Assembly: GCA_037043015.1 (NCBI GenBank)
Contig: CM073324.1
Coordinates: forward strand, 20,848,097-20,912,096
Reading direction: 5' to 3'
Length of the DNA: 64,000 bases
Source: Bryum argenteum
Lineage: Eukaryota > Streptophyta > Bryopsida > Bryales > Bryaceae
How positions within the stretch are numbered: the stretch's first letter is position 1; every line of letters begins with the position of its first letter. The notes below the pieces were generated by a model. The model saw only the letters and a program-made list of their open reading frames with translations, had not been told where the DNA came from and made no database searches. Positions 1 to 33,415 of this stretch are shown here, one piece after another. A program made the translations under genes and the position numbers.

Positions 1-557
1 TGCAGTTCTTGAGCCAGAAACAGGAGGAGTTCTTGAGCGCCGTGCTGTTGCTCACCATCCTGATTCAGGTCGCCGAAGGGATGAGTTACATGCACAGCCA
101 CCATGTCCGGCACCACAATCTCAAGTGTTCCAACGTGCTTGTGGGCGGAATCTATGAGAGCTTGGAGGTTGTGCACGTTGAAGTTTCGGACTACGGGTTG
201 GAACCACGACGACCAGTGATCGAAGAGGACGAGGCTTCGGAATCCAGCTCCATGAGAGACATAGTGCAGTTCGGTGAAGGTGACGAAAACGATGAGTATG
301 CATTTGATGTTTACCAATTTGCCCTGTTGAGCTCGGAGCTCTTTTCTATCCGTGGTTCAGAATGCGCTACTTCTGATTCTGGTAGGATAGCAAATGCGGT
401 GTCGTTCCCAGCCAAGTGCCCTGAGAATCTTGCCTCGTATCTGCACAAGTGTGGGTCCAAGGATCCAAAAGAGAGACCCAGGTTTGCGGAGATTTGCACT
501 GTGCTCCGGAACCACAAAGCTTACATGATTTTGAGTGGAGATCAAGTGCAAGCATAG
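1..557 (+). CDS. Pseudokinase C-terminal part (partial, cut by window start)
   Basis: This is the last 185 or so codons of a kinase-fold protein; the frame is open from base 3 and ends at TAG 555-557. The catalytic loop reads HHNLKCSN where active kinases have HRDxKxxN, and the DFG position reads DYG, so catalysis is unlikely (seen in sequence). It is a close copy of the 3' end of the gene at 14161-17951: about nine residue changes plus a seven-residue gap near base 154, where the other copy has CKSSESGARS. Homology continues past the stop to about base 980, matching 17952-18310, so the duplicated block is larger than the coding part. Its 5' half lies outside the window, so whether it also has the kinase half cannot be told. 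Confidence 0.8.
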   Translation, partial: QFLSQKQEEFLSAVLLLTILIQVAEGMSYMHSHHVRHHNLKCSNVLVGGIYESLEVVHVEVSDYGLEPRRPVIEEDEASESSSMRDIVQFGEGDENDEYAFDVYQFALLSSELFSIRGSECATSDSGRIANAVSFPAKCPENLASYLHKCGSKDPKERPRFAEICTVLRNHKAYMILSGDQVQA

Positions 558-4762: not shown

Positions 4763-5020
4763 TGTTGGAATTCTGTAACCAATAATGATATATTAAATAT
4801 ATATAGTTTAAGGTAACTTTCCACCCAACCATAGAAGGAGATATTGAATAGAAAAGTTTAATCAACTGTATCTCCTTCACCCTCCAAGCTACATTATATA
4901 CCATTAAGACGTATGTCTTATGGTGTTCCCACTACACACTTGTATGGTGTTCCCACTACACACTTGTATGGTGCTTCAGCTACCATAAACTAAAGAGTCT
5001 CCGGAAACCCAATTCCAACA
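4763..5020 (-). repeat. 3' LTR of outer Copia element
   Basis: This 258 bp LTR matches 13335-13592 with one mismatch. It contains an internal doubled 24 bp block (ggtgttcccactacacactt core). Since the element lies on the minus strand, this copy is its 3' LTR. Confidence 0.92.
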
Positions 5021-5795: not shown

Positions 5796-5853
5796 CCTCC
5801 CCTCGTTCCAGTGACCATGGCACTGGACGCTTTGGCTATGGCATTTGTCAGAA

Positions 5854-6513: not shown

Positions 6514-9500
6514 CTTCCTTAATCTGATGACTGAGAATTCCACGGAACTGACTCGGCCTCCTTGTTTGCGTTGATCTTGACTAGCCCCAGCTTGCTGCGG
6601 ATTTTCTCGAATGCTGTTCTCCCGAGCGCTTTCGTGAAGATGTCCGCCACTTGTTCACCTGTAGGTACAAACTCCAGAGCAATCTCTCCAGACAGAATCT
6701 TTTCCCTGATAAAATGATGTCGTACCTCCACATGCTTCGTCCTCCCATGATAAACCGGATTATGTGCCAGATTTAGACTGCCTTGATTGTCTCCACGGAT
6801 GGTGGTGGGAATCTGCAGATCTTGTAGCTTCAATTCTCCAAAGAGCCTGCGTAACCAAATTGCCTCCTTGCAGCCCTCCGTGATTGCCATATACTCAGCT
6901 TCTGTTGAAGACAACGCCACAGTAGGTTGTTTTTTGGAATTCCAAGTGATAGGTGTGTTTCCAAGAAGAAAAACAAAACCTGTTGTGGACTTCCGATCAT
7001 AGAGATCTCCGGCCCAATCCGCATCAGTGAAGCCACAAATAAGATCATCCTCCCCTCGTTGGTAAAACAGAGCAAACTCCGAAGTGCCCTTCAGGTACCT
7101 GTAAATGTGCTTGACAGCAAGCAGGTGGGGCTCTTGCGGGCTACACATGAAGCGACTTACAAGGCTTACCGCAAATGAAATATCAAGTCTGGTATGGGTG
7201 AGAAAAATTAACTTGCCCACCATTCGCTGATAAGTTGTTGTGTCGATCGAAGGAGCTGCCATGTCTGGTTCTAACTTCAACTTGTCCACCATGGGTGTGT
7301 GAACAGGGCGACACTCCGAAAGGCCAAAGTCTGAGAGCAGCTCGCGTACATATTGCCGCTGTGTGACTAGGATGCCATTCGTGGTGAATACAAACTCCAG
7401 GCCCAGGGAATAAGATAGCATACCAAGGTCAGACATGGCAAACTCACGCTGGATCGCAGCACGAATCGCAGCGATGTGCTCAGAGTGATCACCAGTGATG
7501 TAAACATCATCCACGTAGAGAAGTAGCAAAGTAAGTTTACCATGAGCTTCGGAGTAGTACAAGTTGCTATCGGCAGATGATTTCCGAAGACCTTGGCTGA
7601 GAAGGTAAGCGTCCACCTTGCTGTACCACGCCCTTGGAGCTTGTTTCAGCCTATAAAGGGCCTTTTTAAGCTTACAAGCAAAGCCAGAGCGGGAGGAATC
7701 TTCAAATCCAGGGGGCGGAGCTACGTAGATATCTTCAGTGATCTCACCATTGAGAAAAGCCGTCTTCACGTCCAGGTGAAATATGGGCCGCCCTCGATGT
7801 CCCGCGAGGGCCACAATACTCCGCAAGGTGTTCCATTTCACCACTGGAGCAAACGTTTCCGTGTAGTCGGTGCCGGCTTGTTGCTGGAAGCCTTTTGCAA
7901 CAAGGCGAGCTTTCAGCTTGGCGGTCGATCCATCTGCGTTTGTTTTCACGCGGTATATCCATTTTGTTAAAATTGCTTTGCGGCCGGGGGGAAGTTGAAC
8001 TAGATTCCATGTGTAGTTCTGATGAATTGAGGAGAGCTCATCATGCATGGCTGTACACCAGCCAGGATGCTGCAGGGCGGCATGCACGCTTTCTGGTAGC
8101 AGGGGTGTGGACACTGTGGACTGAGCTTCAGTGGCGTTGAGCTCATAATCGGAGAGTCGGCTGGGAAGCTTACGGGGGCGACAACTACGAGAAGGTACTG
8201 ACGGTTCAACTGGGAGTGTTGTTGCAGGAACTTCAGTGGGACTGGGAGTGGATTCTAGTAAGACTCGAGATTGCCTATGGTAAGTATGAAGAGGGACTTG
8301 AGCAAGGTGGGAAGTATCGGGCATTATTGGAAGTGCTACACGAAAGTCTGTGATGGAACAAGGAATATCAGAGCCCGGAGAATGCGGCTGCTGCGGGGAG
8401 CAGTTTGGGGAGAAGTTCGGTGCCGGACTGAGCGGAGACTGCGGAGTGGAGGTGGGTAGATCCTGAATCTGAGGCGGTAGAAATGGATCTGGAGTCGAGT
8501 CTAGCATGGCAGGTGTGTGACTAACGATCTGTTGGACCTGTGTAGCTAAAGATGGTCGTGCCAGCTGAGAGTAAGTGGGAGAACGTGACGAGGTGGCTGA
8601 CACGCTAGGATTAGATTCTAAGCTGGCCGGATTGGACTGTGCAGGAAGCGTTTCATGACTTTCATCGGACCAGGTCGGCCACTGTTCAGGAGAGACGTTA
8701 GAACGGACGGGACCAAGCTGGTGTGATTGACACGGATAGGTGTTTTCATCAAACTCTACATCCTTAGAGATCAAAATTTTGCGGGTGGTTCGATCATAGG
8801 TTCTAAATCCTCGAGAGTTCTGGTCATAGCCTAGAAAAACGCACTCACAGGATCTAGGTGCCCATTTTTTCTTATGAGGATTAGTGTTGAGAACGAAAAC
8901 TCTACATCCGAAAACCTTTAGGTGGCTAATGGAGGGGGTAGTACCTGTAAGCTTTTCATATGGCGTTTCCCCGGAATTTGCTCGTGTAGCCGTCCTGTTG
9001 TGAGATAATTTGCTGTAGCAACAACTTCTGACCACAAATGAGGAGGAATGTGGCTTTCAAAAGCCATGCTCCGCGCTTTCTCCATCAGACTTCGATTCTT
9101 TCTTTCCGCTACTCCATTCTGATGAGGAGTGTTGCTCTGTGTGAATTGGCGCAGTATGCCATGTTCATCACAGAAGAGCTAAAACTCCTTGGAGATGTAC
9201 TCGCCTCCGCGATCAGAGCGAATTGCTTTGATCTTTAGGTTGCTGTGAAGTTCAATCATCGTTGTGAAGTGCTTGAACTTTGCAAGAGTCTCGTCCTTTT
9301 TCTTCAGGAAATAGAGCCTAGTAAACCTGCTGTAGTCGTCAATGAAGGTAAGAACATAGCTTGAACCTGAAAGCGACATGGTGGAGAGTGGACCGCAGAG
9401 ATCCGTGTGAATCAGCTTCAGGGGTCCATCAATGCGAGTAGACCCTGTAGAAGCACTGCCAGATACGGTGCGTCGTTGTGTTTGAGGTCGCAAAACTCGC

Positions 9501-11173
9501 TGCCTGATCTGCTTTCCAATGCGGCAACTTGTACAGAAGTGTCGTGACGGCACGCTGATCAGCGGCAGTCCAGTAACCTTGCGATTTTGTGCCATGAACG
9601 CAATCGTTTTAAAGTTTGCATGGCCAAGTCGGAGATGCCACAATTCTGCTTCTCGTGCCTTGGTTTCCGAAACAGCGCTGTTGATGAGTGTGTCTGGTGG
9701 ATGAAAAGAGTAGAGTCCGTTTCGAGCATTGCGCTTGCCAACCGTGACAATGTGATGAGTCTCAGGAGACGGAAAGTTTCTCAGAATCCATACTCTTTCG
9801 GAATCAAAAAGCAGCTTGTGATTTCCTGGCTTGTCTTTTATTGTACCAACTGACAACAAGTTCTTTGTCACACCGGGCACGTAAAGAACGTCATCGAATG
9901 ATATTGAACCAGAAGTGGTAGGAATCTCAACTGAGCCCTTTCCATGAACATGCAGCCTTTGTCCTCTGGCTGTGCTGATTTCAGATCTACTGCCTCGAGC
10001 AAGATTAGTAAGGAGATCTTTCTTTCCAGTTACATGTCTGGAGGCGCCACTATCTAAGTACCAATCTTCTTCTTGATTGCTATCTGCTAAATGGAGCTCA
10101 CTCACATTGAGTGCTAACTCGGTCTTTTCTCCTGGTACAGGGAACTCTTGCTGCTGCGGCCATGGAATGGTAGTGTCATCGCCAGAGTCGGATGAGTCGC
10201 TTGGTGCGGTGAAGTTGTCCACGAGGTTCACGGAAGGCTTCTCACTTCGACTGGCTCTGCGCTTCTTTAGTTCAACCGCAAGATCTGGACAGTTGCGGAG
10301 CCAGTGATCTTTCTTGCCACAGTAATGGCAGCTGCTTCCTGGCTTCTTCTGTTTCTTTCCTTTGTCTCCAGATTTGCGTGAAGCAGAGCTGCGGCCACCG
10401 TTCTTGACCAGCAATGCTTCATTTTCAACATGTTTTGTACCGCGTAGCTCCCGTCTGGTTTCTTCCTGAAGAAGGATGACTGTAAGTGCTGCCAAGGATG
10501 GAAGAGACTCACGATACATAAGATTGTTAACTAGACCTTCAAAACTTCCTGGTAGAGCCATCAGAGCATGTTCTACGAGTTCAGCGTCATTGAGAATTTC
10601 TCCCACACATGCAAAATCATTAACAAGTTCTTTCAACTGCTGCAGAAAGTGGGACACGTAGGTGCCTTCCTCCATTTTGAGGTTAGTTAGCTTCCTTTTA
10701 AGCAATAATTTCCTGGAGTTAGTTTTGTTTGAGTACAAATCTTGCAAGACTTTCCAGCATACATCCGGTTCTGTTATATTCGCTATATAAGGAATGACAT
10801 TGTCCTTAACTGACAAAGCTATGATTGTTAGTGCCTTTTTTTTCTGTATTTCCAATGCTGCAATCTCTGCAGGATCGGTGGGAGCAATCGCCCCTGGAGG
10901 TGGATCTACCAACTTCCACACATCATTCCCGTTCAAGACATTTCGAATCTTGAAGTTCCAGACTGAGTAGTTAGGAATGCCGTCAAGCTTAGACGAATCG
11001 CCAAGCTGACTCTCTCGGAATGCCATTCTTGAAAGTTAGTATCAGTCACCTCCCCTCTCTTGACTGTTCCTCAAAGTCTCAGTTAGTAGTTCACTATTCA
11101 CCTAGGATAGACGCTTCTAGCTCTAGTCACTGAAATAGGACATCTACTCTCCCAAAGCCTCGCTCTGATACCA

Positions 11174-13334: not shown

Positions 13335-13592
13335 TGTTGGAATTCTGTAACCAATAATGATATATTAAATATATATAGTTTAAGGTAACTTGCCACCCAA
13401 CCATAGAAGGAGATATTGAATAGAAAAGTTTAATCAACTGTATCTCCTTCACCCTCCAAGCTACATTATATACCATTAAGACGTATGTCTTATGGTGTTC
13501 CCACTACACACTTGTATGGTGTTCCCACTACACACTTGTATGGTGCTTCAGCTACCATAAACTAAAGAGTCTCCGGAAACCCAATTCCAACA
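13335..13592 (-). repeat. 5' LTR of outer Copia element
   Basis: The 258 bp LTR is preceded on the plus strand by ctctgatacca (the minus-strand primer site) and followed by the target duplication GTTTC. It matches 4763-5020 except at one base. Confidence 0.92.
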
Positions 13593-13597
13593 GTTTC

Positions 13598-14160
13598 CGA
13601 TGATTCCGATTAAGATGTTGTAGGGCAATCTTTGGAAGCTCGCACGGTCGCCATAGCTACTGAATGGTGATACAACTAGCCATGGATGTGCGAAGAAGCT
13701 TGTTGGCGAAGCTATTGTAGAAGGTGCATATTAGAATTCAGTCATCGTCCTTCGAGCACGTTACGTCGCCCTTCGACGTCCTAGCTTGGTATTTGCTACG
13801 AATTTGAAGTATATCCAGAGACAGTTCCAGCGCGGTTCGTGATTTTCGCGAGACAGTGCCATTGCCATACCGACATTGGAGGGCGACTTCGTGGCCTCCA
13901 ATTTCCGTTCCAGTGGGTGAGTCTCACCTTCTTTCTACGAAGTGGTGCGCCCACCAAGAATGTGAGTGCGTGTCTCTGGTCAATCATTCATCAAGTCCTC
14001 TTTTGATGATTTGCGAAGTTTTGATAGGTTCGTGAAACATGTAGCAAAGAATCGATACTGATTCTGTTGGGACTAATCGTAGCTGCGTAACGTACAATGT
14101 CTTTGATACATCCTCTACATTATTCGGCCTCATTTTCAGCTAACATGTACTCGTGAGATC
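13598..14160. other. Upstream region of the tandem kinase gene
   Basis: No gene is recognised. Just before 14140 the sequence cctcattttcag resembles a 3' splice site, and the kinase frame is open from it, so the true start of the downstream gene may lie in an exon within or left of this stretch. Confidence 0.45.
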
Positions 14161-17100
14161 TTGGCAGAGCCACGAGCTCACATGAAGAATGCCGCTTATT
14201 ACCTGTCAAGCATATTGGACCGGATCGACGAAATCCGGAGGTTAACAGAAGATGGGGATCCTTCTAAAGGTTCAGTAGCCTTCAACAAAGAGAAGTGCAA
14301 ATATATGGCTTGTAAGCTCACAATGAGTGTCAAACCGATGATCGAGACTTCATTGTTATCAGCGGGGAATGGCAACACAGTTGGGCCAATGCTTCGATAT
14401 ATTGCTTTCGCAGTGGAGAATGCAGAGCGTCTCGTGAAGCGAAGTTGTGAACGTAAGTGGTGGAAAGAGATATTCAGGAGGGGAGATGGGACTGAAGCAT
14501 TCGGGGAAGTACTCCTCGACTTGCATGCAGCAATGGACATTGCAATTGACAGCATGATCTTGGCCTTGCATGCAGCAGTGGACATGAAGGCCATGGACAA
14601 CACAAGTCGAAGCAGGTCAAGGTGTAGATCTGAGCAGCTGGGACAGGTGTGGAACTCGAAAGTGCTTCAGGACCGATCGTTACACATGTGCAATATCAGG
14701 CTGGTGGTACAACACAAATCTCACCTTGCAACTGGGAAGAGGTTGGACGATGTGGACCTTAAAATCGCCAAGCATGTGATGGAACGGGATCATCCAGAAA
14801 GTGTCATCCAGTTAAGGACGACTATTTTCGTCAAAAGAATTGACAAGGACATAACCTGCATCACATGGCATGGTAACAAGTGCGTGATGAAACGCCTCCC
14901 GAGAGATGACCTTGCTAAGAAAGAGGCCGCCATCATGAAGGACCTCATGCACCCGCACGTTGTGCAGCTGATCGGCTATGCACTTCACAAAAACAGACTC
15001 AATCTCTTCACGCAGCCCTCACCAAACATTCTCTTGGAATATGCAGATCGAGGAAATTTACGTGACTATATCCAGAATCTGAAGAAGGATCTGGAAGCGG
15101 ATATGATTGTGAATGTCATGTTGGAGATTGCCGAAGGAGTGCGGTACATTCACAGCAAGAAGATCGCACACCTGGATCTGAAATCGATGAATATCTATGC
15201 TACCACTCACGAGATCTTGGACTTGAAGACTGCTAATTTCGTTCATGTCAAGATTGGGGATTTCGGCTCTGCCATCAGGTGCGACCACGACAAAGTCAAA
15301 CCGGATTGGGTGTATGGCACTCCCAGTTGGCGAGCACCGGAGTTGTTCCAAGAGGCAAAAAGTTCGGGTTCAAAGAAAGAGCTTCCAAATTCGAATCTGG
15401 AGCCTCTGGATTTGTTCAAAGCCGATGTTTACAGCTATGCAATGGTGTGCGTTGAGCTTGTGACCAGACAGCTTCCTTTGCAAGTCCAGTTTCCCAGTTC
15501 CCCCATATCGAGCGAGGTGTACGAGTATATCAAAGTGGAGACCAACAGACCTTCGCTCCCAGACACTTACCCACCAGAACTCTTGCGCATCATCCGTCGT
15601 TGCTGGGATGGTGAGCCCTCGAAGAGACCATCGTTTGAACACATCGTCGAAGAGCTCACGAAGTTGAAGAGAGATATGCTTCTGAAAGACCAGTTTTACT
15701 CTGCTCTCCCGAAAGTAATCTTCAATGAGGATAAGTAAGTTACTGCCTAATTATCGTGAGATTCAAAGTTACATGGTGTGTTAAGCATCTTCACATATTT
15801 GGCACTGTTGCACGGATGATGTGAACTCATAAGCTCTTACTTTGCTTTGTTTGGTTGTTACTCAGGGTTACAGCACTCATGAAAGTTCGAAAACGATTGC
15901 AAAGAGTTGGCTGGTATGAATTCGGAAAAGCAATATTGAGTGAGTCCACGCGTCATTCTGATTTACGAAGGCCCATCGGAGAAGCAATGTTGAATTATTA
16001 CGACGTGTTTCCTGGAGAAAGGTTTATGTGTTTCGACATGCTTACTGAAGCAATGTCGAGTGGGTCCGGCATGGATCGATCTGTAGCAACAATGAGGGAT
16101 GATCCTGAAGCAATGTCGAGTGGGTCCGGCATGGATCGATATGTAGCAACAATGAGGGATGATCCTGAAGCAATGTCGAGTGGGTCCGGCATGGATCGAT
16201 CTGTAGCAACAATGAGGGATGATCCTGAAGCAATGTCGAGTGGGTCCGGCATGGATCGATCTGTAGCAACAATGAGGGATGAGCCTGCTGCGTATTATGA
16301 TGGCATCGAACTAGAAGATGTGCTGCTTAGACCTTTCCGCAGGAGAGGTCGAGACCAAAAACCAGATCCCTTCCTTGGTCAGGAGTCTACCTCAGATTCA
16401 GGTGAAGATGATGGTGATGATGATCAATCGGTGAGGACGGGTACAATGTCTCCTCTTTTTGTCGTACACACCATCCATCCACCTTTCAATGCTCAGGGTT
16501 GCGAGATGTTGATTCAACTAGGAAAAGATGTGAGTTACAAGATCGATGACGTCGTGGCTGGAGGGGCTTTTATTTATCAGCAGATGTACACCGCACGAGC
16601 ATCCCACCTATAACGCGTTTTCGGCCAGTTCCAAGAACAACTACGCCTTCTATATGCCGATGCCATCAATCTCAACGTCACTTTATACGATGAAGTGTTC
16701 AACGTCTTAAAGAGGGTGGAATTCTTACTGGCAAGTTGTTCGTGGCCGGCCATCGAATTCCATGGTGGACCAACTGCCACCGACGAAGCTTTTCTTTCTC
16801 TACGAAAGAATCTACAGCATTGTGTGCACATGATGAGACATGCTTCAACGGTTCAGCGCATCACCATCGAGAGAGTCTCCGACTTTGTGTTCGAGGACCT
16901 AAACGAGGATACTTGGAGCCATGCATGTGAATCTGATCGGAATAAATTGCTTCAATTTCTTTCAAGTTCCCTTATTAAGATTAGTAGGGATGATGAATGC
17001 AAACGTCACCAGTATCTGGGGAGCATCGCAATGATCTCAAAAGACCCCACGATGTTCAGGGAGTGGCTTCCTTCAAAAATTCCATCTGAGTTCGTCAGCT

Positions 17101-17951
17101 CGATGTCTAAAGGTCTTTGGGATGAAGGTCCGGATGGCCTCATCCTGGATCCACTAACATTCTTACCTGTAAAAACAAGATATCGCGGCAAAGAGAAGGC
17201 AATGTACCACTATCGACCAGTGTCATGGGCCGTGAAAGTGTCATCCAGGAAGCTGGCCTACGATTTCATCAAGCTTGCAAGCCTCCAACATCCACACGTG
17301 GTGCAAATGTTCGGCGCATGGGAATCCAAGGGGTCTGAATATGTGGCCATGAAGATGATGCAGACCAACGTGATGCAGTTCTTGAGCCAGAAACAGGAGG
17401 AGTTCTTGAGCGCCGTGCTGTTGCTCACCATCCTGATTCAGGTCGCCGAAGGGATGAGTTACATGCACAGCCACCATGTCCGGCACCACAATCTCAAGTG
17501 TTCCAACGTGCTTGTGGGCGGAATCTGTAAGAGCTCGGAGTCTGGAGCTCGAAGCTTGGAGGTTGTGCACGTTGAAGTTTCGGACTACGGCTTGGAACCA
17601 CGACGACCAGTGATCAAAGAGGACGAGGCTTCGGAATCCAGCTCCATGAAGGACATAGTGCAGTTCGGTGAAGGTGACGAAACCGATGAGTATGCATTTG
17701 ATGTTTACCAATTTGCCCTGTTGAGCTCGGAGCTCTTTTCTATCCGTGGTTCAGAAGGCGCTACTTCTGATTCTAGTAGGATAGCAAATGCGGTGTCGTT
17801 CCCAGCCAAGTGCCCTGAGAATCTTGCCTCGTATCTACACAAGTGTGGGTCCAAGGATCCAAAAGAGAGACCCAGGTTTGAGGAGATTTGCACTGTGCTC
17901 CGGAACCACAAAGCTTACATGATTTTGAGTGGAGATCAAGGGCAAGCATAG
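14161..17951 (+). CDS. HeLo-like helical domain + kinase + repeat linker + pseudokinase (tandem kinase protein)
   Basis: I join three exons: up to 15734, 15866-16529 and 16629-17951. The introns are GTAAGT...CAG (131 bp, phase 2) and GTGAGT...CAG (99 bp, phase 0, containing an in-frame TAA at 16611-16613). The sum is 3561 bases, 1187 codons with the stop. The first ATG in frame is 14182; the frame is open back to a possible 3' splice site at 14139. Residues ~30-145 are all-helical with FNKEKCKYMA, resembling the MLKL/HeLo N-terminal fold (inference). Residues ~215-500 are a kinase with VMK (K244), HLDLKSMN, DFG and APE but no clear glycine loop. A four-copy 20-residue repeat follows, then another helical stretch and a pseudokinase (AVK kept, HHN for HRD, DYG for DFG). 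Plant MLKLs and tandem kinase proteins act in immunity; that role here is inference. Two separate genes remain possible. Confidence 0.7.
16047..16286 (+). repeat. Four 60 bp in-frame tandem repeats in kinase linker
   Basis: Four nearly identical 60 bp units encode EAMSSGSGMDRSVATMRDD-P. Only a few bases vary, so the expansion is recent. Two decayed relatives of the unit start seem to lie upstream at about 15924 (aaagcaatattgagtgagtc) and 15979 (gaagcaatgttgaa), suggesting an older array. Confidence 0.93.
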
Positions 17952-21951: not shown

Positions 21952-24900
21952 ATGGCGAAGCAGATGGACTTCTGTCAAGAGGCTGCAAATTCTGTTGCTG
22001 CGTGGCCATGGAGCTTCGTTGGCGCGCTACTTTGCCTCTACCTTATTTCAATTTCTGGTTTGGCGTTGAATCTTGAAGGTGATCTTGCTTCTACATTCAC
22101 ATTCTGTCGGTGGCATGGCCATGGTCTCCTAAAGGGATGATAAGTGAGAAATCGGATTGGCTCGAGGTCGAGGATTGATCACTAGTGACTCGTGTTGCTG
22201 TCGTGAGCCTCCGCGCATACTGCTTTGTTGCCCTCTGCTGAATTCTCATTCGCAAGATTGCAATAACAAATTGAACAGCCTATTCTGCCTTTCACCTTGT
22301 TAAACCTATTTTTAGGGAAGTGAAATAACTCAACAAAATGCATCATCGTCTTTCTTTCAACAAAATTCACCATCGCTCTTTCTTTCAACAAAATTTATCA
22401 GCTACTTCCATCAAAACCTACCATCCTTTCAATTCTGCTGCGGAGCTAGTGTTGTCGGAACCAGGCGCAGGTTACTGTAGGTTTCGCGTTTCCGCAATTT
22501 AGAGGTCTCATTGTGAGTACTTACTTCCGTTGCTGACCCGACGGCGGCTGAATTATGCACAGGTCATGCCCTTCTTGACTTTGTACACAATGCCAGTGTT
22601 GCCGAGAGTGGCCTGAAGGATTGGAATATCACAGACAGAACACCTTGTCGTTGGACTGGCATTCAATGTGACAGTGAAGCTCACGTGTTGGTCATGTGAG
22701 CACTTCTCAGCCCGATTAACTTCGACTTTTGAAGCTCCTGCTCCCTCGACTTGTGCAAATCTTTTGGCCCTAAACGCAATCGTGGTGCAGAAATCTGTCG
22801 AACAGGAGGCTCCGCAGCAATGTCACTTTGGAAACGAGCAAGTTGAGAAGGCTCAGAGTATTGTAAGTCGGCAAAATGTACTACTTCTCTTGTCTCTTAC
22901 TACTCCGGTCTTTCTGCAGCTGATTCACATCTCTTGTGGAGTTTGCAGGAATTTGTCACTAAATAATTTGGAGGGCGGGATACCATCGTATTTGGGACGC
23001 TCCACCACCTTAAGAAGTCTGTGCGTGCATCCCCATGATCCAGTGTTCTTTTACTTTTTCCCGATGTCACTCAGTGCTTGTAACTGGAGAAAGTGCGACT
23101 GACAATCCTGAGATAAATGTGCAGAAACATTCATTCCAACAACTTGTCTGGCACGATCCCGCCAGAGCTGGGCTTTCTACGAAATCTCAGGGAATTGTAA
23201 GACAAGACTTAAGCCCATCATCATGATACATCATTGATTGAAGAGGTTTCGGATAAAGTTTTACTGATTGCTCCATTGCGGGTGTGCAGAGATCTCTCAA
23301 ATAATCATTTACAAGGTGCAGTGCCGGCAAGCTTAAATCGATTGACAGAACTTTTATATCTGTAAGCATGGTTTGAGTTCAGCATTCTGCAGCACTAGGA
23401 TTAGGTTGGAAGGAATGTGTACTTGATCTGCGAGCGAGTAGACAAAATATCAGTTACTACATAGTTAGGGTTTTGCCGTCTACTTGTTTACCATGTAGCC
23501 TTCCCTGTACTGCCTTGCACATTAAATAAGGATCTGATGAAGTTTCTGTGACGTGTGCTTTCGCAGTAATTTATCAGTCAACAAACTTCAAGGGGTCTTA
23601 CCACAAGGAGGAGTGCTTTCAACCTTCTCTACCTCCTCGTAAGAGAATGTATTCTGTCACAGTTTACCTTCTGGATATTCAATCGAGAAGAACCGACTTG
23701 TGAAAGACGGGGAGAAAATATCTCATGAATGTTTCTGCAATGTTCGTAGGTACCAACAGAACAAACTCTCTGGCTTTCCCATCACAAAGACTTATTACAC
23801 AAGCAGATCACTCTTGGAAGACACTTCCGCTTCTGCTGCTCCTGTTCATAGCTGTAAGTTTAGATCTCTCTCGCATCTGGTTCATTTCACGAATTATCTT
23901 CCCACATCCATCTGTGTCTTCACATGGTTAACAAAAATGGCATTGTATGTTGTGAGGTATAAACTGCGATAAAGTATGTAATCACAGCCATTAGATTCTT
24001 TGCAATTTGATGTATCTGTAGGTACTTAGTTCTCCATATTTTGGAATCAGTCACTCACTTTATGTCGTGCATAATGGTACAGCTACTTCGAAGAGTGGCG
24101 GTGTGCAATTTGTGAAGAACAAAAAAATCAGCATCGTCATCATCGTCCTTGTCTGTGTTGCTGCAATTGGAATATCCAAGTTGTTTTTAGGTGGCCTATG
24201 GTATTGGCGGCGGACCAGACAACGCAATATCTGCGAAATAAAGCTCTCTGGTACGAGTTGTCCCCTTTTCGAATACTAGGCAAGGTCTTAGGAAAATAAA
24301 AATTCACATCATACATGACGTTGTTCCGCTCGCTCGCCTTTTTGGTGGAATGCCCGGTTTCTCATTTTGAGTTTGGATGCAGGTGGAAAGATGGTCATTT
24401 TCCAGATGTCGGGAAAATCGACTCCTTCCACGACGTACATAATGGAGAAAATCGAGAAACTTACATCTGATGATATAATAGGAACCGGTGGCTACGGTAC
24501 CGTGTACAGGCTTGTTCTAGATGATGAGACTGTTCTGGCTGTTAAGAAGTTGTCAAGGGGAGGAATTGACCGAGAGCGGGGCTTTGAACGAGAGCTGGAG
24601 ACTTTGTCTGATCTTAAACATAAGAATTTGGTTTCTCTTCGTGGTTATTACAGCGCGCCTCATATCAATATTCTCCTATATGACTTGATGGGGAACGGAG
24701 GTTTGGACGCATGGTTGCACGGTGCGTTACTATCTCATACTAGTGAATCCTGTATGCATACATTGGGATGTTCTCTTTTAACAAGGTGCAGTTATGCATT
24801 TGTGCAGAATATGAATCAACGGAGCTCAATCCATTAGATTGGGACACGCGAGTAAAGATAGGGATTGGAGCTGCTCGAGGCCTGGCATACCTACACCATG

Positions 24901-29309: not shown

Positions 29310-32300
29310 ATGGCGTATTTTCTTGAGTGGAAGAGGAACAGGAACAGGAACAGGCTGCTGGTACTGGCCGTCGCCATCGTGCTCTGTCTTGTTCCGTGCA
29401 GCGTAGCCCTCAATCCTGAAGGTACTATTGCAATCAACTCTGAAAGTTGCTGTTCATCATTTTCGCTGTACAAATTCCTGATCGATCTATCACATTTATA
29501 ACTTCTAGAATTAGTTCTGCCCTTCCAGATGCACTGAACAGCGAAATTTGGTTGGGATTTTCCCGCAGTGCCGCCGCGTAGGAGGATTGAATACAGAATA
29601 TATTTCTTTTGTGAGTTGATTAATGTGGTGCTACGGCTATAGAGAGGAGCGATTGGAACCCTAGCAAAGCACTCAGATAATATCTAAGCTAATGAGCCCA
29701 GTGCGCAGTGGTTTCTATTATAACGTCATCGAAGTGCTGTGTGATTACATCGTGCCTTTTTTTTTCAGGATTGGCACTGATTGATTTCAAAGAGAATGTA
29801 GATGATCCAGTTGGAATACTTCGGAATTGGAACATCAATGATCTTTCGCCCTGCAGTTGGCGTGGCATCATATGCAATAATGTCACCAACCGAGTTCAAA
29901 CATTGTACGGGAAAATTCTGACCTCTAAATATGAATCTGCTGCAATTTGTCATCAGTACTGCCAATGAAGAGATGTACCCTGTCAGTAAGATTCGAAATT
30001 CTAACTGCCTCTTTTGTCCTATTCAAACAGAAATCTGCCGAGAGCTTTTTTGAATGGTACAATTAGTTCTCAATTGGGAGCTTTGGCGGAGCTTCGTCGC
30101 TTGTAAGTCTCAATCCATCCTCAATGTATTTGTTAGGCGATCTATGGAATGTTATCTGTTTCGAAGTCCCAGTGTTTTCTTTCCCTGATATTCACTGGAT
30201 TCCTGTTTTCCACAGGGGACTGCACTTCAATAGATTCACGGGACCAATTCCAGCATCTCTCGGAAACCTCACTTCCTTAAAGGCGTTGTAAGCTCCATCC
30301 TTTTTCTATTAGAAGACAATTATGAGATGCACTTCTTTAAAGCTAAAGAAAATTTTAAGTCACTTCTTAACTTCTCAGGAGGATTAAAGCGGCTATCGTA
30401 TATTGACTTTACTTACAATGATGCAGATACTTGCATAACAACAGTTTAACAGGAGCGCTGCCAGATACCGTAGGGTTACTGCCAAAACTACAAATATTGT
30501 ACGCTCTCCTAACTCTTTCTTGCAAGCTGTCTTCAGTTGAAATTTCTATTTCTAGTTCTGATCGGCAATGCAATATGAATTTAATGTGAATTGACGTATT
30601 CATGTCATAATTTTCAATCACATCTATTAAAGAGTTAAGGAGTCACCATTATCAATCACTCTTGCAGAAGCAGTGTAACCAACCATAGGAAGTGAAAACA
30701 TGGTTTCTAGATAATGAATATTTACATGGAAGTTTGAAGTGTGCCAAGTGCCACCAGTCTTCCTGAAATATTCAGTTTATGGTTATGATGCTCACTTAAG
30801 ACGATCGCAATACTTTCATGTTAGCAACCACATTGTGAGGTTACATGCAACCACTTTTTGTCGATTATTTCTCAATTCTATCATGATCACTCCTGTATTT
30901 CAAATGCCTCGAAATGCCCAGTTCAGTAAATGATAAAGCACAACAGTGTGGGACTTGCTTCACGATCGGTTGTTTGGAAACATCGGTCAGGATGAGACAT
31001 CCAGCTAATTGTATGTTTGCATTGCTTCAGTGATGTATCATACAACAAGATCGAGGGAGAAGTACCAGAAAGCTATGTAAATTTATCAAGACGCAAATTC
31101 CTGTAAGTTCACAATGACACTGCTTGACCATTGAGCTTACAAGCAAACACAAAGGAACATCCGTAAGGAAGTGACAGTTTTCGAATTTTATCCAAAGTTT
31201 CGACATGGACAGTAGCACTAACAATCTATTTATGTTCCTTGAGCGCAGATTCACGGGCAATGGTGTGTTATGCGGAAGTTCACTTCTCGGATTGCCTGCG
31301 TGCTCATTGAATGATCAGGCATCAACCCCACCACGACGCGCTTCTCGTAAGTTCCATTCTTTCGCCCCATTTTTATTGTTCTTACAGATCTGGTAAATGA
31401 AATGTAACACGGAATCGTTATGTACTTGCAGGTGCTTACTGGAGTCTGTGGAAGATTTTAACAGTCTCTGTAGCTGGTTTTCTTTTTTTCAAACTCGTAC
31501 TTGGACTCTTGCTCCTACGCCGTTGGCTACGAGAAGATGATGAACGCGAGATTGACCTTGGGAAAGGTATGTAAAGCTTAATTTTTGCTCATTCAATCTC
31601 CGGTTTGTGCCCCTGTCGACTCACATATCCATGGTGCAATGGACAGGTGGGAAGTTGGTCATGTTCAAAGGCGGTACGGATGTGCCAACTTCCAGAGAGA
31701 TGTTGAGAGCAATTCGTAGAATCAAGAAGAAGGATGTCGTAGGAGAAGGCGGTTACGGTACAGTTTACAAGATAGTTCTCAAAGACAACAGCACATTCGC
31801 GGTTAAAAAACTGAAGCAGTGCTTAGAAGCAGCTCGGGGATTCGAAAACGAGCTTGAGACGCTTGGAGAGATCAAGCACTGTAACCTCGTGAAGCTTCGA
31901 GGGTACTGCATCTCCCCATCGATCAAGCTTCTAATTTACGACTTCCTTCATAACGGAACCTTGGACCAGCTATTACACCGTAAGTTCTCATCGCCACCCA
32001 GTTACTCATTTACTATTCCGCTCCTGAGAACATTCATTCTTGACTAACTTGGAATGGTGGCTTTCCAGCTCATACCGATGCAGAGAAGCACAACCCCGCG
32101 GACTGGCAAACCCGGGTGAACGTAGCATTGGGGGTAGCTCGGGCTCTCGGCTACATACATCATTGCTGTGAACCTCGGATTGTGCACAGGGATGTCAGTG
32201 CTACAAATGTGTTGCTTGATGAGAACTTCGAACCTCGTCTCTCCGATTTCGGTTTGGCTAGGCTGATGGACCCTGGCGTTTCACACGTCACTGTAACCGT

Positions 32301-33415
32301 TGCCGGGACATTCGGCTACGTATCACCAGGTAGCAATCGCACCATCCTTCTTTTCTTAACACATGCTGAGATGGTTGAGTCCTGACATAGTCCTGTCTTA
32401 GTGCAGAGTATCTTACTAGGACGTCCTTTTGATATGCTGATCTTGTCCTGGTTGATCTTGCAGAATATGCAAAGACAGGTCAAGCGACGGAGAAATCGGA
32501 CGTATACAGTTATGGCGTGCTGCTGCTGGAGATTCTCAGTGGCCGCCGACCGACAGACTCATCAATTATTGAGGAGCATGTTAGCCTTGCTGGCTGGGTA
32601 CCACTCTCGACCTCTACTCTGTTTCGTTGCCTTCTAAAAAAACCCTGTGATACTGATGAATTTTCAGATTTAGAGATCAGAAACATCTTCAATGAACGAT
32701 AGCTTATCAAGCTTTCAACGTCAATCGCACAAACAAGAAAAAGGGCATATTGAACTAACCCAATGAAACAGAGGGGGTATAATTTATAATAAGCTTCTGC
32801 AGCTGTGAATGTTTCAAGCATGTAGTCTTTCGTTGGCTGGGAGTGATTATGAGCTCTGATGTGAATTCATACCAACGGATCATTCAACGAAACGATAAAG
32901 CATCTTCCATGAACATTTGCTTATTATGCGTGCACTGTCGATGGCAAAAGGGAAAATCGAACCAATTCAATGAACAGGGGGAGTATAAATTTCAATATGC
33001 TCGGGCTTCACTGATGAATTACTGGTTCCAGGCCCGGAGTCTGCACGAGAACTGTGAGGAATTCGAGATAGTGGAGAAGCATTTACGAGACACGGTGCCA
33101 CACCGGGAGCTAGCAATGGTGATGGAGATCGCATGCAGGTGTATTTCACTGACACCGCAGGAGCGTCCGCGAATGGACAAGATCGCCCAGTATCTCGAGC
33201 GTCTCATTGAACTCGATTCGCCACCTTCTGACTTCACCATGTCCACCACCACTTCCATACGAACTCGAAGCATGACCAATCTCACCGACGTTGGACGCCC
33301 CAGCCATGACTTTCTGGATATCAGCGACCTGCCAGGGTTTAGACATGATGGCCAGAAGTTCGTTATCGACATGGGCCAGAACCAATGTTCGGGAAGAACC
33401 GTCAGTCAGTTGTAA
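29310..33415 (+). CDS. FEI-like LRR receptor kinase, copy 2
   Basis: Twelve exons: 29310-29421, 29769-29904, 30031-30102, 30216-30287, 30427-30498, 31031-31102, 31249-31346, 31432-31566, 31647-31979, 32069-32329, 32464-32597 and 33032-33415. They sum to 1881 bases, 626 residues. Order: signal peptide ([19 protein letters not shown]), N-cap (ALIDF, then CSWRGIIC), four 72 bp LRR exons, GNGVLCG, membrane helix (about 220-245) and kinase with GEGGYG, K310, HRD (about 407-409) and DFG; APE is SPE. Each exon matches one of copy 1 in order and phase, and exon 11 is 134 bp in both. The C-terminal tail is about 49 residues longer. The ATG at 29310 starts the signal peptide; an upstream in-frame extension has no ATG. 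Intron 11 contains a diverged internal duplication. Confidence 0.88.

Follow-up and report, generated by a model that had tools for sequence, protein, structure and literature searches.

We have analysed a stretch of 64,000 nucleotides of Bryum argenteum (C4:20848097-20912096 of a plant genome of 259 Mb; this whole stretch is called the window), which holds at 14182-17951 of its forward strand one gene, referred to as "copy B", composed of a helical N-terminus, a kinase with the motifs HLD, DFG and APE, and a pseudokinase with the motifs HHN and DYG. The best explanation of our findings, which we consider probable, is that copy B is the downstream tandem copy of a family of five loci and carries a premature stop, and that its upstream neighbour, copy A, is intact and probably consists of two MLKL-like units. 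The architecture is real and uncommon; copy B, in all likelihood, is a duplicate that has been damaged, and the gene of interest is copy A. What the nucleotide sequences themselves show are the gene structures of copies A and B, the conservation as protein of a segment that had been taken for an intron, the stop, the kinase motifs and the past purifying selection.

The family comprises copies A and B, the loci on C3 and C9, and fragments on C6. Copy A is open from its ATG to its stop, with two exons and 1056 amino acids, the C3 locus has one stop and one frameshift in exon 1, and the C9 and C6 loci have several stops each; the order of the parts is identical in A, B, C3 and C9. In copy B, three open reading frames (ORFs) are located on the forward strand (14107-15738, 15825-16613 and 16614-17951): the first two are joined in frame by intron 1, and the last two share one frame, a single TAA being their sole separator. 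Intron 1 is confirmed, since copy A carries a near-identical 131-bp counterpart with the same ends. An earlier note on this DNA had described one gene at 14161-17951, with two introns and 1187 codons. Its first intron (15735-15865) is upheld by the counterpart in copy A and by a T content of 38%, and so is the view that there is one gene, except for its start: position 14161 is a TTG, A, C3 and C9 likewise have an ATG where copy B has that at 14182, and by this alignment the start codon of copy B is the ATG at 14182. The count of 1187 codons fits the frame from 14161 with the second intron removed, and that intron is not supported; left unspliced there, copy B extends over 1213 codons, counted from the ATG and with the final stop included, and codon 767 is a stop.

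In the N-terminal domain, which we refer to as "N1", the only Pfam hit before the kinase of copy B is to MLKL_N (expectation value, E, 0.021). A profile of 12 sequences of this genome, the window included, has been used for the family; 8 of these 12 members have an MLKL_N match with an E of 1 or lower, the best E being 1.3e-11. The comparison of the profile with the PDB has returned 14 sequences at E up to 10, of which the first seven are MLKLs (E 1.4e-4 to 1.8e-3): five of the seven are named MLKL in their record, an eighth MLKL entry ranks ninth, and the top two are 6lba and 6ka4, which we take to be plant MLKLs. In hhalign, N1 of A, B and C3 aligns with nine other HeLo-type domains of the same genome (96%, E 3.6e-9; the partial domain of gene L048 was left out of this set), scoring 61.7 against 18.5 for the highest of 50 shuffles; by subset, the score is 55.4 (95%) against genes L030, L031 and L046, and 23.9 (5%) against the six tandem-kinase ones. 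A single-sequence AlphaFold2 (AF2) model places helices at residues 2-24, 36-61, 67-89 and 103-139, with a predicted local distance difference test score (pLDDT) of about 60 in the helices and a mean of 48. Several results point the other way: N1 of the window by itself reaches 14.8 bits, below the MLKL_N gathering cut-off of 27; the 12-sequence profile also holds stronger members; and Foldseek, run with the low-confidence model, has returned 600 matches at E up to 10 and none at E <= 0.001, the 50 best of the 600 being generic or designed helical bundles with no MLKL among them. The assignment of N1 as an MLKL/HeLo-type domain, homologous to the solved MLKL N-terminal domains, is supported by the family profile. 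An NB-ARC domain behind N1, the mark of an RPW8-type nucleotide-binding leucine-rich repeat receptor (NLR), was not found in the Pfam scan of the window's three frames, where N1 is followed by the two kinases and one unrelated match at chance level (E 0.62); a genome search for DUF1221 (PF06760) gave no match, which is no proof of absence, as the control genomes were equally empty.

Kinase 1 (Pfam PK_Tyr_Ser-Thr, E 8.8e-35) keeps the lysine, the glutamate, the HLD aspartate, the asparagine, DFG and APE, and has a degenerate glycine loop; among its 1640 PDB matches at E up to 0.001, 6lba again ranks first (E 4.6e-24). Kinase 2 has HHN in place of HRD, DYG and no APE, and the motif features of both kinases are common to A, B and C3. 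The arrangement differs from the HeLo domain with a lone pseudokinase that characterises MLKL: the catalytic residues are kept in kinase 1, and copy A has a second kinase fold. One chain thus carries both a kinase and a pseudokinase in copy A; for copy B this would require a bypass of the stop. In a tree of 36 kinase domains, the window kinases stand apart, both on long branches, and the tree does not settle whether the two arose by one internal duplication.

These findings agree in part with the protein that the earlier note had pictured: the resemblance of the N-terminus to MLKL/HeLo is borne out by the family profile, whose top seven PDB matches are MLKL structures, the kinase with HLD-DFG-APE followed by a pseudokinase with HHN and DYG is borne out by Pfam and the motifs, and the combination of HeLo domain, kinase and pseudokinase exists in the open frames of copy A, with variants of it apparently in seven other genes. 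In the comparison with MLKL/RPW8 bundles that had been proposed there, the model shows four helices, at low confidence, and matches no structure specifically. The order of the domains is confirmed, with one omission: a second helical region, located before the pseudokinase, which we refer to as "N2".

Against the HeLo profile, N2 scores 36.6 in hhalign, with a maximum of 21.6 among 50 shuffles, and 32.4 in a second comparison, with a maximum of 23.6 among 100 shuffles and 17.6 for the reversed N2. A weak N2 profile match in copy B lies at 16680-16931, and the profile scan gives second-domain hits in corresponding places of A (E 0.2), B (0.076) and C3 (0.008); L016 likewise shows a second hit at chance level (0.11). 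No place in the genome outside the five loci matches the N2 region below E 0.05. We consider N2 probably HeLo-like, on sequence evidence that is moderate and partly conflicting. The conflict is a matter of several results that weigh against a HeLo-like N2 and favour a different view, in which the two kinases are separated by a mere helical spacer instead of a further HeLo domain, and the order in the intact protein is HeLo-kinase-spacer-pseudokinase: N2 has no meaningful match in Pfam; its profile finds four sequences in the PDB, none meaningful (best E 0.39); its scores against subsets of the profile are weak, i.e. 27.1 (9%) against three sequences of the single-kinase type, counting L030, and 19.6 (1%) against six tandem-kinase sequences; two other helical N-termini from the MLKL_N list, of a coiled-coil NLR (CC-NLR) and of a U-box protein, score similarly (29.9 and 25.5, compared with 32.4 for N2); the direct comparison of N1 with N2 fails (E 0.55); and the AF2 model of N2 is uninformative (pLDDT 38.7). 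Against a spacer speak the outscoring of every shuffle in both profile comparisons (0 of 50 and 0 of 100 reaching N2) and the corresponding places of the weak second hits in A, B and C3, although L016 has such a chance-level hit as well; we regard the spacer as a serious possibility, although not the one that we favour.

The TAA of copy B is located inside N2, and the earlier note had concealed it in its second intron (16530-16628). This claim has not withstood the comparison with the relatives, where the segment is not non-coding, but coding and conserved (A, C3 and C9). A genome search with the peptide that immediately precedes the TAA, and that covers most of the 99 bp, finds five places: B itself, A (86% identity), C9 (66%), C3 (64%) and C6 (55%, over 42 of 57 residues). 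Frames of 575 amino acids in A and 554 amino acids in C3 cross the segment without interruption, and in the alignment of A, B, C3 and C9 the 99 bp are coding and conserved, the TAA of B being replaced in A by a sense codon. By this alignment the second intron is very probably not real, and it is most likely an artefact of the joining of frames by hand. Because an in-frame TAA occurs at 16611-16613 where A has a sense codon, copy B most likely encodes a truncated protein of 766 amino acids.

Message decay by the exon-junction route is not expected for a stop in the last exon, and the TAA is located in the last exon found, but the long 3' untranslated region (UTR) may still destabilise the message. 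It is conceivable, though rather unlikely, that copy B is a working gene for the shorter HeLo-kinase protein of 766 amino acids, the stop being tolerated because it is in the last exon. The stop does lie downstream of the only intron found, and HeLo-kinase frames exist in the same genome (L031 and L046) and in wheat relatives (Pm13); on the other side, about 1.3 kb of former coding sequence would have turned into 3' UTR, and three of the four other loci of the family are themselves damaged or fragmentary.

An improbable alternative is that the 99-bp segment has become an exitron or a new intron in copy B only, in which case the TAA would be spliced out and the resulting four-part protein would lack 33 residues in N2. 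A GTGAGT donor and an AG acceptor are present, 99 is a multiple of three, and both the length and the pyrimidine tract before the AG are inside the range of a yardstick of 10 introns that were found at 12 actin junctions tested in four genes (77-141 bp, T 0.28-0.48, GC 0.39-0.46). It is by a change specific to B that the donor reads GTGAGT; a GT...AG pair that removes a stop was available at 5,809 of the 5,809 codon positions tested in nine related frames, but a pair with a GTRAGT donor was available at only 178 of them (3.1%), and therefore the donor match of the segment is not trivial. B-specific and A-specific changes number 8 and 0 in the segment, compared with 78 and 54 elsewhere (Fisher p 0.023), and by site there are 8 B-specific changes in 99 positions, compared with 78 in 2,883 elsewhere (p 0.007); this excess has been set aside as support for an intron, since as many B-specific changes occur in 245 of the 2,884 overlapping windows of equal length. 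The composition of the segment is that of an exon (T 0.25, GC 0.52), the first exon position after it is T, where the 10 actin introns are followed by G or A, and the G before the donor, present in all 10, is missing, as it is also from intron 1; moreover, splicing would discard conserved residues. Branch-site motifs are uninformative, being absent from the segment and from 6 of the 10 actin introns.

Highly improbable is a base error in the assembly, with copy B being intact: the TAA is the sole disruption in 1213 codons, but stops or frameshifts also occur in three of the four other loci, so that decay is usual in this family. That the locus is the junction of two genes, the first with its end near 15738 or 16613 and the second with its start near 16614, as the separate ORFs of the window might suggest, is scarcely credible, given that a single frame spans the junction in A and C3 and that A, B, C3 and C9 agree in the order of the parts.

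The ratio of nonsynonymous to synonymous substitution rates (dN/dS), estimated by NG86, is 0.40 (exon 1) and 0.32 (exon 2) between A and C3; therefore, purifying selection acted on both halves of the gene in the past. Two observations weigh against our best explanation: dN/dS between A and B is high (0.61 in exon 1 and 0.83 in exon 2), and the B-specific and A-specific changes past the stop are about equal (18 to 14; 14 to 14), so that copy B bears no clear sign of long decay in its sequence. From the nearly equal numbers of changes it follows that the stop is either young or without effect. Stretches that are near-identical between A and B (e.g. about 17296-17717) alternate with strongly diverged ones (16790-17200 and 14230-14400), a patchwork suggestive of gene conversion or of the helical domains having diversified locally. 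The 60-bp repeat in the linker of copy B is absent from A, C3 and C9.

From its N-terminus onwards, the product of copy A comprises a domain of the MLKL/HeLo type, probably with four helices, then the kinase, a short linker, the second helical region, which is probably HeLo-like, and the pseudokinase; copy B, with the stop inside its second helical region, most likely gives a HeLo-kinase-linker protein of 766 amino acids or no stable product. In the mechanism that we propose, the kinase and the pseudokinase would at rest restrain the N-terminal bundle; a trigger, either an effector or phosphorylation, would be sensed by the pseudokinase or act via phosphorylation and release the bundle, which would oligomerise at membranes and promote immune cell death, the pseudokinase half serving as sensor, decoy or clamp. 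We infer the role in immune cell death from the biology of MLKL and of tandem kinases. A tentative extension, in which we place limited confidence, is that the two MLKL-like units, one with the kinase and one with the pseudokinase, are fused head to tail into a single-chain necroptosis-like device: if so, an executioner, a kinase and a pseudokinase regulator would be found in one polypeptide, the MLKL and tandem-kinase classes of plant immunity would be joined, and the device would stand beside a separate expansion of HeLo-pseudokinase-kinase proteins. Tandem kinases confer disease resistance in cereals, and their path to cell death is an active question; with a HeLo domain built into a tandem kinase, the link to cell death would be testable in one protein.

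The search of the genome with MLKL_N gave 22 matches at E up to 1, seven of them above the cut-off; 21 regions were retrieved, and the proteins of 13 were scanned for both domains. Seven further genes (L030, L038, L039, L040, L047, L048 and L049) appear to carry two kinase folds behind a HeLo-type domain within one open frame; six of these genes had also gone into the profile by which the seven were scored. Three of the seven, L038-L040, pass the MLKL_N cut-off (32.8 bits for L038, 29.4 bits for L039), L030 has a sub-threshold DUF1221 match, L047-L049 are not among the MLKL_N matches and were recognised by alignment to the others, and the HeLo-type domain of L048 is partial. L038-L040 and L047-L049 have a degenerate first kinase (HGD, DLR) and a second one with DFG and mostly HRD (HRN in L040), i.e. 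the order of the kinases is the reverse of that of the window gene; in the kinase tree, the first kinases of this group form one clade with L042, L044 and L018, and the second kinases form another. By eye, L045 (C6) and L052 (C8) are NB-ARC-LRR-like (leucine-rich repeat) frames, the N-termini of which have sub-threshold MLKL_N matches, consistent with a shared four-helix design.

Table 1. Locations of the features of copy B, of the tandem copy A and of the seven further genes that appear to join two kinase folds to a HeLo-type domain; positions are those of the window unless a contig is given.
Feature	Position	Strand	Remarks
Tandem copy A, 17 kb upstream of copy B	C4:20845352-20848653; 3' end = window 1..557	+	
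Domain N1 and connecting region (B residues 1-222)	14182..14847	+	MLKL/HeLo-type helical
Kinase 1 (B residues 211-498)	14812..15675	+	Pfam PK_Tyr_Ser-Thr; motifs; best PDB match 6lba
Intron 1	15735-15865	+	131 bp; GTAAGT...CTCAG; T 38%; joins ORF1 to ORF2 in frame
Tandem repeat of 60 bp in linker	16045..16287	+	4.1 copies; in frame; 20-aa units
Region N2, second helical region, perhaps HeLo-like	16440..17241	+	Profile comparison (hhalign)
Supposed intron 2, most likely coding exon	16530..16628	+	Protein kept in A, C3 and C9; exon-like composition
In-frame TAA, premature stop at codon 767	16611..16613	+	Sense codon in copy A
Kinase 2, pseudokinase	17172..17918	+	Pfam PK_Tyr_Ser-Thr 4.2e-23; HHN for HRD; DYG; APE lost
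L038, L039, L040	C10		
L047, L048, L049	C5		
L030	C2		

Elsewhere in the window, two long frames at 6522-11035 of the reverse strand resemble by eye a copia-type gag-pol, and the same array of 24-bp repeats is located on both sides of them (4919-4983 and 13491-13555); frames and flanking repeats perhaps form one element inserted between A and B. At 24319-24834 and 31556-33412 of the forward strand, there are exons that by eye resemble two related receptor-like kinase genes. In the rest of the genome, chlorophyll a/b-binding genes occur in tandem arrays on C5, C6 and C2.

HeLo-type kinase genes are found in this moss genome in several architectures; a review places the family of plant MLKLs (AtMLKL2/3) "across seed plants" (PMC9950082). 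For animals as well as for plants, a link between HeLo domains of the MLKL type and cell death has been described (PMC9950082, PMC10951266). The family shares with plant MLKLs the N-terminal HeLo-type domain that is followed by a kinase fold, with 6lba as the best match of kinase 1, but where MLKL has one kinase fold, a pseudokinase, there are two here, the first with catalytic residues, together with a second helical region. Pm13, from a wild wheat relative, is an MLKL with an apparently active kinase and a powdery mildew resistance gene (PMC10951266); it likewise combines a HeLo domain (MLKL_NTD) with a kinase that has the key catalytic residues, but is without a pseudokinase and without a second helical region. 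The truncated product of copy B, if made, would resemble the HeLo-kinases of the Pm13 type.

Tandem kinases act in resistance; of the 92 tandem kinase-pseudokinase proteins that Klymiuk et al. have reported, one is from Physcomitrella, and none has additional conserved domains (PMC6170490). As in WTK1/Yr15 and RPG1, a kinase and a pseudokinase are located in one chain here, with a first kinase of the non-RD type; unlike in the 92 proteins, a HeLo-type domain stands in front (PMC6170490). Among the matches listed in the open-licence literature, in the portions of text accessible, no protein with a HeLo domain and tandem kinases is described, which leaves room for an earlier description; one paper among the matches listed, that on Pm13 (PMC10951266), contains "HeLo domain", "tandem kinase" and "plant" together. 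Chia et al. have searched plants, mosses included, with a tool whose NLR-associated target classes include MLKL.

Within the genome, L030, L038-L040 and L047-L049 share with the window family a HeLo-type N-terminus and two kinase folds in one open frame, one of the folds being usually degenerate; L038-L040 and L047-L049 differ in that the degenerate kinase comes first, no second helical domain is seen between the kinases, and the kinases belong to separate clades. Lastly, in mammals the kinase and the HeLo-pseudokinase are two working parts in separate proteins, RIPK3 and MLKL; if our reading of N2 is right, the corresponding parts would here be covalently joined in one chain.

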